Assembly (NCBI GenBank): GCA_031279895.1
Contig: JAITHR010000024.1
Coordinates: forward strand, 1-11,665
Source of the DNA: Spirochaetaceae bacterium
Lineage (GTDB): Bacteria; Spirochaetota; Spirochaetia; Treponematales; Breznakiellaceae
Length of the DNA: 11,665 nucleotides
Direction: 5' to 3'
Shown here one piece after another: positions 4,485 to 11,665 of the stretch. The notes beneath the pieces were generated by a model. It had not been told where the DNA came from. It did no database searches and was given only the letters and a program-made list of their open reading frames with translations. Every line of letters begins with the position of its first letter. Position 1 is the first letter of the stretch. The position numbers were made by a program, and so were the translations under genes.

Positions 4485-4598
4485 CGTATCTCCGTATCTC
4501 CTCCCGCCACCGGAACCATACGGGAAATCCCGCGTTCCCGCAACCCCCGCGAGCAGGGTCTTTCTTTAAGTATGGGCATTTCTAAAAAAACAGTATAC

Positions 4599-4616
4599 TA
4601 TAATCGGTCAACCGAT
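4599..4616 (+). promoter_or_regulatory. promoter -10 box with overlapping palindrome ahead of the A+T-rich island
   Basis: A perfect TATAAT sits at 4599-4604. No good -35 box is seen at the expected spacing (4576-4581 reads GCATTT). The palindrome ATCGGT-CA-ACCGAT (4603-4616) overlaps the end of the -10 box and the predicted start of transcription near 4611. Another short palindrome, AGTATACT, lies at 4592-4599. This would suit a repressor-controlled or activator-dependent promoter for the three genes that follow. The leader would be about 23 bases and includes the GGGAG ribosome site at 4623-4627. The sequence match is direct; its regulatory role is inference. Confidence 0.55.
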
Positions 4617-4633
4617 GATTAAGGGAGTTTTAT

Positions 4634-5149
4634 ATGAGAAAGTTCGCTATGTGTTCTTTGATAGTAAACGTTTGTTCCACACTTTTTTCACAAACCTCAA
4701 TTAGTAAAATAGTATTGGATAATTTCTGTGAATACCGCGGGGAAATAACGGATTATTTTTCTTATTATTACAGAGAGGATTATTCAAACGATATGTTATA
4801 CTATAATGGCCGGTTAATGACGATATTCGGAAATATACTGGATCTCAGAATGATTTCAGATGAAATAATTGATTTTATCATAGCGTTGTACCATAAAACA
4901 GTGGCATTAGAAGTACCGGATGAAGATAAAGACCTCTATATTGAGACCGGATTAGGGGAAAACGGGCATGAATTGTATACCAAGATTCTCTCGATTATGT
5001 ATTTTATGCATTTGGAAGATAATATAAGTATTTTTTCTCAGGATGATCAGAAAATAGTAAAAAGAAGCGTACATAAATTGAAAAAATTATTCAGCCAGGC
5101 GGAATGGGATATAACGGTTAGCTATTTCAGAGCAAAATATAATACATGA
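4634..5149 (+). CDS. unrecognised 171-residue protein, first gene of the A+T-rich island
   Basis: I do not recognise a family. The gene is intact, starting at ATG 4634 with GGGAG 6 bases upstream. Its base composition is far more A+T-rich than the flanking chaperone and polA genes, which suggests horizontal acquisition. The first 20 residues (MRKFAMCSLIVNVCSTLFSQ) have a basic start and a hydrophobic stretch and could be a weak signal peptide or simply the first helix. The rest is acidic, aromatic and mostly helical in character (DYFSYYYREDYSND, DEIIDFIIALYHKT, QKIVKRSVHKLKKLF). Its stop codon overlaps the ATG of the next gene (ATGA at 5146-5149), so the two were translationally coupled. Because the third gene of this block is Imm1-like, an immunity protein for a polymorphic toxin is a reasonable guess, but only from context. 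Confidence 0.7.
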   Translation: MRKFAMCSLIVNVCSTLFSQTSISKIVLDNFCEYRGEITDYFSYYYREDYSNDMLYYNGRLMTIFGNILDLRMISDEIIDFIIALYHKTVALEVPDEDKDLYIETGLGENGHELYTKILSIMYFMHLEDNISIFSQDDQKIVKRSVHKLKKLFSQAEWDITVSYFRAKYNT

Positions 5150-5663
5150 ACGAATGAGAAGCGATCAACGAAATCCTAAAAAGAATAGACCGTTATTATC
5201 GAACATTAAAAGGGAATAATAATTTACTTGATTTTTTAAGGATAGAATTAACGTGTATCAATGAAGCGTTGGATTTAATTGATTTAAGTATAGTGCCTTT
5301 ACCTAAAGAATATATAAATGAATGCAGACATACTGTTTATAAGGCGCTGGCAGATAATAACTATAAAGAGATTACCAAAAAATTACACGCGGAAATAGGA
5401 GATGAAATTTTCAAAACAAAAAGTTATATACAAATGTCTCACTATGAACGCTCTGTCTATGAGGCGTTTATGCTTTTGTTTCCCCTTGAGATTGAAGCCG
5501 GTGATCTAATGATAGAAATATTTACCGGTGTTTTTTTGAAATGTTCCTTAGATAAGGAAAAAGATTTTTTACAAATACTGGAAAAGTATTTTGGGAACAG
5601 CGCTTTTCGCCGAAATTGAGCGTCGTTGCGGAGGGGTTTGACAGCCGCTTTCTTGAGAAATGA
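5146..5663 (+). pseudogene. unrecognised ~172-residue protein, broken by a TGA at codon 4 and a late frameshift
   Basis: The ATG at 5146 overlaps the previous stop (ATGA). The frame reads M-N-E, hits TGA at 5155-5157, then stays open to 5619 with convincing protein-like sequence (EAINEILKRIDRYYRTLKGN). A TGG-to-TGA change would explain the stop. The first in-frame alternative start is TTG 5269, which would drop about 41 residues and has no good ribosome site. Near 5590 coding character moves to the frame that is one base earlier, giving EQRFSPKLSVVAEGFDSRF and a stop at 5661-5663. One lost T in the TTTT run at 5589-5592 would restore it. The restored stop again overlaps an ATG (5660), which supports the reconstruction. 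The product would be about 172 residues, mostly helical and A+T-rich in codon use, with no recognised family. A shortened functional protein from TTG 5269 (116 residues) cannot be excluded. Confidence 0.65.
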
Positions 5664-6038
5664 TTAACAGGTACACGCATTGTTTATTGATGATTTTGAC
5701 GGAGAAACGGTAATACGTTCTCAAAAAGAAATTATTGAACTACTGAAAAAGCGCCCGGCTTTTAATGCAAATCATTTTATTTTTACATTTGCCGAGAACG
5801 GAAATTAACGGCGTTTGTAAAAGATGATTATGGTATCGTGTATTATCTGGATAAAAACAGATCGTTTGTTTCAAAAGGAAATAATACCGGCGTGGAAACA
5901 TTTTATGAGAATAAAAGCGGCGCGACAGTTGAGTTGGCAAGGGAAAATATACTGTCCGTTGAATGTCTGGAAAAATGTGTCGTAGAATATTTTGCCACAA
6001 ACGAATGTCCAAAATGTATTGAATGGGATGAACTATAA
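5660..6038 (+). pseudogene. Imm1-family immunity protein, frameshifted
   Basis: Imm1 proteins are cytosolic antidotes encoded next to polymorphic (Rhs/CDI-type) toxins. The sequence shows the family layout in two frames: HALFIDDFDGETVIRSQKEI and onward (5674-5805), then KLTAFVKDDYGIVYYLDKN and the hallmark ending FATNECPKCIEWDEL (5802-6038). Imm1 members characteristically end with a ...GERPxxxEW-like motif. Two single-base losses in A runs repair it: one near 5665-5667 gives an N-terminus MIKQVHALFIDDFDG from ATG 5660, and one at 5802-5804 joins ENG to KLTAFV. The repaired gene has exactly 127 codons, and its ATG overlaps the repaired stop of the preceding gene. As it stands, translation from 5660 ends after 17 codons. 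A 66-residue fragment from GTG 5838 is the longest remaining piece. Family assignment is by motif memory. I see a decaying gene, or less likely sequencing error. Confidence 0.75.
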
Positions 6039-6041
6039 CGG

Positions 6042-6116: not shown

Positions 6117-6386
6117 ATGAACAGGGAGCCGGACATATTCGAGCGCATCGGGAAGCTGTTTGCCGAACAGCCTAAGTATTTTGGGGTCTTTGTGATTGTG
6201 GCCGGCGCGTTTATGGTTGCCGCGGCCCTTGGGAACTGGGACTGGGTTTTCCGGGGGTATAGTTACAACACGGAAAAGATAGAGGGAACGGCGAATAGGT
6301 GGGGCCGGGGCTTTGCCCGGCTGAAATTGGGAGGCGGCGGGTTTCTGTGCGTTATCGTCGGAATTGGGTGTTTGGCGGTGTTGTAG
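6117..6386 (+). CDS. small two-helix membrane protein, probably Imm17-like immunity protein
   Basis: The 89 residues begin with an amphipathic acidic/basic segment (MNREPDIFERIGKLFAEQP). A hydrophobic helix follows (about 22-42, FGVFVIVAGAFMVAAALG) and runs straight into NWDWVF. Then come a basic linker and a second helix at the C-terminus (FLCVIVGIGCLAVL). Two membrane helices with N-W-D-W just after the first, a short basic loop and a very short tail match my memory of the Imm17 immunity family of polymorphic toxin systems. Imm17 proteins are usually shorter at the N-terminus. The ATG has GGGGGAG upstream, though only 2 bases away. Composition is G+C-rich and host-like, unlike the preceding island. 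A TATACT at 6092-6097 could be a -10 box, but TTGACG at 6073-6078 is only 13 bases away from it. A generic small membrane protein is the alternative. Confidence 0.6.
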   Translation: MNREPDIFERIGKLFAEQPKYFGVFVIVAGAFMVAAALGNWDWVFRGYSYNTEKIEGTANRWGRGFARLKLGGGGFLCVIVGIGCLAVL

Positions 6387-6391
6387 GCTGG

Positions 6392-6565
6392 CAGCCTCCG
6401 GCTGTTTCATAAGCGTCATGCCTCGCGCCCCGAACAACGCAGCCTCCCGAACCACCGGAGGCTGCGCGAGCGTAGCCGCGCCTCAACAGCACTGACTCGC
6501 TCACCGGACACGGTGTTGCACCACTCGGAAACAACAGGCGGCCCTGCCGGAACAGCCGGAGGCTG
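6392..6565 (+). repeat. hairpin-ended MITE/REP-like element, copy A (174 bp)
   Basis: The left end CAGCCTCCGGCTGTT and right end AACAGCCGGAGGCTG (6551-6565) are perfect 15-bp inverted repeats. Each end folds by itself into a 5-bp stem with a TCC or GGA triloop. Inside lie a second hairpin (GCAGCCTCC at 6439-6447 with GGAGGCTGC at 6457-6465) and blocks shared with copy B near polA in opposite orientation. One block is identical over 28 bases (6468-6495 versus 11324-11351), and others are GCGCCCCGAACAACG and CAACAGGCGGCC. It begins 5 bases after the stop of the Imm17-like gene and encodes no transposase, so if mobile it is non-autonomous. Confidence 0.75.
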
Positions 6566-6716
6566 GACTCTACCCGCCGGCGTTTGAACTCTACCCGCCG
6601 GCGTTTGGACTCTAAACGCCGGCGTTTGGACTCTAAACGCCGGCGTTTGGACTCTACCCGCCGGCGTTTGGACTCTACCCGCCGGCGTTTGAACCCTACC
6701 CGCCGGCGTTTGAACC
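6565..6716 (+). repeat. 21-bp tandem array A, seven full units
   Basis: Seven consecutive 21-bp units start at 6565, 6586, 6607, 6628, 6649, 6670 and 6691. Each runs from G(G/A)ACTCTA through a CCC or AAA triplet to CGCCGGCGTTT, and a fragment GAACC ends the array at 6712-6716. Units 3 and 4 share the AAA variant and 5 and 6 are identical, as expected if neighbouring units duplicated recently. There are no spacers. Because 21 is a multiple of three, several frames stay open (heptapeptides such as KRRRVES or DSTRRRL). I see no start signal or stable frame that argues for translation. The array begins on the last base of repeat element copy A. Confidence 0.92.
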
Positions 6717-6809: not shown

Positions 6810-6977
6810 CCGTCTCCGACGGTTTCATAAACGTCATGCGCCGCGCCTCAAAGCGGACGACGACTGCTAACAGGCGCCGTCTCCGACGGTTTCAAAAGCC
6901 TCACGCGAAGCGGCTCTAAGCGGACGACGACTGCTAACAAGCGCGGCACGGGAAGCGTTTAAAACAGCCGGAGGCTG
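6810..6977 (+). repeat. hairpin-ended element copies C and D, with a 67-bp tandem duplication
   Basis: Two head-to-tail 67-bp units run from 6811 to 6877 and from 6878 to 6944. Each opens with the hairpin CCGTCTCCGACGG followed by TTTCA(T/A)AA(A/G)C and ends with GCGGACGACGACTGCTAACA. The block closes with the opposite-orientation end CAGCCGGAGGCTG at 6965-6977, preceded by GAAGCGTTTAAAA. The whole block thus has the same inside-facing end structure as copy A, but the two ends use different stem sequences (CCGTC/GACGG and CAGCC/GGCTG). No coding capacity is supported. Confidence 0.7.
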
Positions 6978-11464: not shown

Positions 11465-11665
11465 GATTCAGTTTTATCCTGATATGATTCAGTTTTACTC
11501 TGGAAAGATTCATTTCCGCCCTGGAAAGATTCATTTCCGCCCTGGAAAGATTCATTTCCGTCCTGGAAAGATTCATTTCCGCCCTGGAAAGATTCATTTC
11601 CGCCCTGGAAAGATTCATTTCCGCTCTGGAAAGATTCATTTCCGCTCTGGAAAGATTCATTTCCG
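11465..11665 (+). repeat. 21-bp tandem array B, nine full units plus a partial unit cut by the window edge
   Basis: Units start every 21 bases from 11465 to 11633 and a 12-base partial unit begins at 11654, so the array continues past the window. The core unit is GATTCATTTCCG(C/T)(C/T)CTGGAAA without its last base shown here differing only at the two marked positions. The first two units are diverged (GATTCAGTTTTA). Units with the same variant lie side by side. Several frames are open because the period is seven codons (for example SRAEMNL on the minus strand), but no start signal supports translation. The sequence is unrelated to array A although the period is the same. Confidence 0.92.

Follow-up and report, generated by a model that had tools for sequence, protein, structure and literature searches.

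What is the short A+T-rich block of genes that interrupts a contig of a Spirochaetaceae bacterium, and what, if anything, would it protect against? We addressed this question for the window, an 11,665-nucleotide stretch (GenBank assembly GCA_031279895.1, contig JAITHR010000024.1) that comprises one whole contig of a draft genome (1.88 Mb, 292 contigs, 74.7% complete). A sequence-only reading had proposed a foreign immunity island of three same-strand genes with overlapping stop and start codons, standing without a toxin. Our analysis extends the locus to a fourth gene and makes it probable that this is a small locus of the heterogeneous polyimmunity (orphan immunity) type, presumably acquired horizontally, whose A+T-rich part is decaying. 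The features concerned are as follows.

4634 to 6038, no strand assigned: A+T-rich island with genes 1–3, set apart by G+C, G+C at third codon positions (GC3) and codon index
4634 to 5149, plus strand: gene 1, intact open reading frame (ORF) of 171 residues with an apparent signal peptide and an all-helical model
5146 to 5619, plus strand: gene 2, helical protein with TGA at codon 4 (5155–5157), possible SsdAI-type antidote
5680 to 5805, plus strand: first piece of gene 3, for the N-terminal portion of a putative DddI/Imm1-type antidote, with TTG at its start
5802 to 6038, plus strand: second piece of gene 3, in a different frame and covering the rest of the same putative antidote
6117 to 6386, plus strand: gene 4, intact, 89 residues, Imm17-like, two hydrophobic segments

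An immunity function is well supported for gene 3, as judged by homology. Its first piece (query 5668–5805) aligns to residues 2–41 and its second to residues 45–123 of the 123 residues of 6u08_B (E-values of 8.6e-9 and 1.4e-15), which is DddI (DddAI) and confers immunity to the deaminase toxin DddA. The NCBIfam DddI model NF051843 matched the first piece at 42.3 bits (E-value 7.3e-11) and the second at 53.4 bits (E-value 2.5e-14), both far below its equivalog cut-off of 200 bits; we therefore call gene 3 a DddI relative and not a member of the equivalog. The Imm1 features that had been noted in the third gene were confirmed with PF14430, whose cut-off of 22.4 bits is exceeded by the second piece alone (24.4 bits). 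In a genome search with this model the second piece again scored over the cut-off (22.8 bits), while matches in 3 of 14 control genomes all fell short of it. Binding of toxin by the DddI antidote is established, and a whole gene 3 would yield a DddI-type protein of the cytoplasm, able to bind and block a double-stranded DNA (dsDNA) cytosine deaminase of the DddA kind that enters the cell. In contrast to DddI, gene 3 is split over two frames and has no toxin partner nearby; no adjoining DddA-type toxin gene was recognised in the window.

Gene 4 lies outside the region (4590–6040) to which the cluster had been assigned, and is supported as an Imm17-like immunity gene. Passages of PMC3482391 describe Imm17 as having two transmembrane helices that enclose WxW and R, as present in heterogeneous polyimmunity loci and as perhaps acting at the membrane, unlike most immunity proteins. 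Consistent with this description, gene 4 has two putative transmembrane helices, and WDW and R sit between the two hydrophobic segments as read from its sequence. Its own score against the Imm17 model PF15562 is below the cut-off (22.1 versus 25 bits), whereas homologues in genomes G146 and G087 pass it at 30.5 and 26.1 bits. The product of gene 4 would be an Imm17 protein of the membrane, where it may also act. The gene is found in three of 195 family genomes, its own included, and the G087 homologue precedes a 97-residue ORF of 27% G+C. A lone JetD-like gene (Wadjet component; L028:5967–7229) lies near the Imm17-like gene of G146; no other Wadjet genes were recognised by eye in that stretch.

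For gene 2, kinship was sought through structure. No Pfam or NCBIfam sequence family was found for it, and no sequence match to SsdAI at an E-value of 10 or less. Its model consists of seven helices and no strand, in keeping with SsdAI, which is described as exclusively alpha-helical in passages of PMC7901873. The top fold match is an antidote complex, PDB 7jtu (SsdAI), with the next entry far lower. The same passages give binding of its own toxin as established for SsdAI and name DddAI as the immunity determinant of DddA. The modelled fold thus gives moderate support to gene 2 as an SsdAI-type antidote, possibly kin to SsdAI, which confers immunity to the deaminase toxin SsdA (chain B of 7jtu, as we infer). 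The two proteins are 10% identical, and gene 2 differs in being shorter (about 157 versus 193 residues), in lacking a toxin nearby and in carrying a stop at codon 4. Its product was probably a helical protein of the SsdAI type, which would plug the active site of a single-stranded DNA (ssDNA) deaminase of the SsdA kind.

These assignments invite a more specific proposal, which we advance only tentatively: that the island was once a defence operon specialised against DNA cytosine deaminases, in which an SsdAI-type gene 2 (ssDNA) and a DddI-type gene 3 (dsDNA) shielded the cell from the mutagenic attacks of neighbours, with gene 2 founding an antidote family without sequence kin among the families searched. 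The kind of locus is known; what may be new is the gene 2 family and the combination of two antidotes to deaminases. No locus combining antidotes against ssDNA and dsDNA deaminases was found among the matches listed in a search of open-licence literature with few terms. Neighbouring bacteria are mutated or killed by deaminase toxins, DddA and SsdA among them, and DddA has found use as a base editor. If the proposal is true, gene 2 would be a new inhibitor of BaDTF2 deaminases, and an orphan locus that counters deaminases of either substrate type would suggest toxin pressure in the community of a host lineage that itself shows no such toxin.

The 171-residue ORF of gene 1 was upheld by 12 relatives, all metagenomic and 60–75% identical (the window's own fragment not counted), which cover 95–99% of it in 10 cases and 87% and 68% in the other two. 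A hydrophobic start is common to the relatives that retain the N-terminus in the alignment, and by eye this start looks like a signal peptide. The predicted structure is all helix (mean predicted local distance difference test score, pLDDT, 82.7), with no Foldseek match in the PDB at an E-value of 0.001 or less, and no family of Pfam or NCBIfam scored over its cut-off. An alignment search found gene 1 in 3 of 390 genomes of the order, its own included. The neighbours of distant relatives (G090, G066 and G008) are a tetratricopeptide repeat (TPR)-like gene, small secreted-looking genes and a regulator, and no toxin was recognised by eye beside them in the stretches read. Two of the small secreted-looking genes, of 27% and 40% G+C, adjoin the distant relative in G066 (L006:3477–4442). 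An immunity role for gene 1 is not supported. The locus thus combines two supported immunity families (Imm1 and Imm17), one by fold only (gene 2) and one unsupported (gene 1), and the idea of an orphan immunity cluster stands for genes 3 and 4, moderately for gene 2, but not for gene 1.

None of the island genes behaves as a conserved housekeeping gene; such conservation would have spoken against the sequence-only reading. Among 195 family genomes, gene 2 and the DddI-like gene (NF051843) each turned up only in the window's own, and the DddI model matched 2 of 392 phylum genomes, the second being G249. A single-sequence search with gene 1 matched 3 of 98 family genomes including its own, the other two at only 26–28% identity. 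The predicted sharp drop in G+C was also observed, and the profile is not uniform: G+C is 33.6% in 4634–6038 compared with 56.8% across the remaining window, and none of 150 windows of 1405 bp taken outside the island was as low (51.7 to 61.9%). GC3 is 0.24–0.35 in genes 1–3 and 0.58–0.72 in the remaining genes. A codon-adaptation-like index is likewise shifted (0.51–0.54 versus 0.69–0.78), although it was trained on seven flanking genes, which therefore in part score themselves. The island is probably of foreign origin. Gene 4 is host-like in all three measures (G+C 56.3%, GC3 0.711, codon index 0.727). Inside the island, the roughly 60 bases between genes 2 and 3 (5620–5679) have 51.7% G+C, and a 15-codon frame (5616–5663) lies across this spacer and overlaps the gene 2 stop.

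The host composition of gene 4, the apparent secretion of gene 1, the occurrence of its distant relatives outside recognised immunity settings and the missing sequence family of gene 2 would all suit mixed foreign cargo, in which an A+T-rich insertion brought a true immunity gene 3 together with unrelated genes 1 and 2 beside a resident Imm17 gene, with no shared defensive purpose. We regard this as unlikely. The claimed overlap of stop and start codons holds for genes 1 and 2, which are joined by ATGA at 5146–5149 (it fails for genes 2 and 3, since gene 2 stops at 5619 and the homology of gene 3 starts at ~5680–5683); the antidote complex is the top fold match of gene 2, well above the next; and Imm1 and Imm17 families lie less than 80 bases apart.

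The probable decay of the A+T-rich part is a separate matter. All three same-strand genes were located at 4634–6038 as expected, but not all as working genes: codon 4 of gene 2 is a TGA, the next ATG, GTG or TTG in its frame comes at 5269, and gene 3 is split between 5680–5805 and 5802–6038. As sequenced, neither gene would yield a full protein and, barring assembly errors, the function of the island part is for that reason probably lost. Residues of gene 2 downstream of the stop are still 60–70% identical to those of relatives; the decay, if real, is therefore recent. This conservation, and the draft state of the assembly, could also indicate that the lesions are assembly or sequencing errors in an intact, working orphan immunity operon, an explanation that touches only the decay part and that we consider improbable, as two lesions fall inside some 650 bp of island sequence, whereas the contig's longer host frames are open.

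No toxin was recognised in the window, no search being aimed at SsdA-type deaminases. Nor do related loci bear out the suggestion that homologues would directly follow toxin genes: none was recognised in those read, in which most genes were judged by eye only. There is little chance that the locus is what remains, at the immunity end, of a polymorphic toxin locus that has lost its toxin or has it on another contig; such a remnant would suit a draft genome in 292 contigs and a family with Rhs cores in 32 of 195 genomes, but Rhs cores were found in none of the six genus genomes, own included, a DddA-like domain was found in none of the 195 (a weak absence, as no control genome matched either), the window itself offers no recognised toxin, and several unrelated antidotes side by side fit an orphan array better. 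With no matching toxin recognised beside it, a polyimmunity locus would protect against toxins of neighbours, its antidotes binding effectors that neighbours deliver, as we infer for the window's relatives.

A possible route by which such antidotes spread is suggested by G249, a genome of the same order with two DddI-like genes. One (L054:7448–7831) has a repeat copy on either side, the core of this repeat occurring eight times in the stretch versus 0.33 expected; the other (L053:7288–7803) adjoins a fragment that matches integron integrases in their C-terminal part, in a stretch with four cores versus 0.33 expected. The L054 gene alone passes the Imm1 cut-off, and the L053 gene has no Imm1 match. 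We call the repeats candidate attC-like elements, and the antidotes may have spread as integron cassettes. In neither region (L053:6743–7803 and L054:7448–7831) was a toxin recognised with the DddI-like gene, which is accompanied by attC-like repeats or an integrase fragment. No DddI gene in an integron was found among the matches listed in the same limited literature search. The window contains no copy of the repeat core, and no direct repeats bound its genes; a hairpin scan, which does not discriminate, gave a single weak candidate within the island.

Beyond the locus, the window holds the following features.

Flanks of the island: frames we take to be grpE (end only), dnaK, dnaJ and polA
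Flank, opposite strand: DUF58 gene (PF01882)
Flank: fliS (PF02561)
Flank: FlgN-matching gene, profile match below cut-off
Flank: small zinc-ribbon-like gene, profile match below cut-off

Repeats were also observed. A 21-base tandem repeat is present at 6564–6712 (7.1 copies) and another, with a different unit, at 11500–11665 (7.9 copies), reaching the contig end. A 67-base unit occurs twice at 6810–6944, with a diverged third copy at 6392–6458.

How does the locus compare with known systems? Excerpts of PMC3607928 report Treponema as the sole spirochaete clade with integrons. The DddI-like genes of G249, near attC-like repeats or an integrase fragment, resemble the Treponema chromosomal integron cassettes described there, unlike the window, which has no repeat core and an overlap between genes 1 and 2. 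Both polyimmunity loci and arrays of orphan immunity genes are established, as set out in parts of PMC3482391 and PMC12247911, respectively. Compared with the heterogeneous polyimmunity loci of the former, the window's locus is short, with two broken genes, an unexplained gene 1 and no recombinase recognised in the window, but it apparently shares with them structurally unrelated immunity families that adjoin on one strand with no toxin recognised. The rAID arrays of Bacteroidales, set by the latter in the context of the type VI secretion system among gut Bacteroidales, have other families than the window's locus, in which no recombinase was seen; they are likewise orphan immunity genes thought to protect against the toxins of neighbours.
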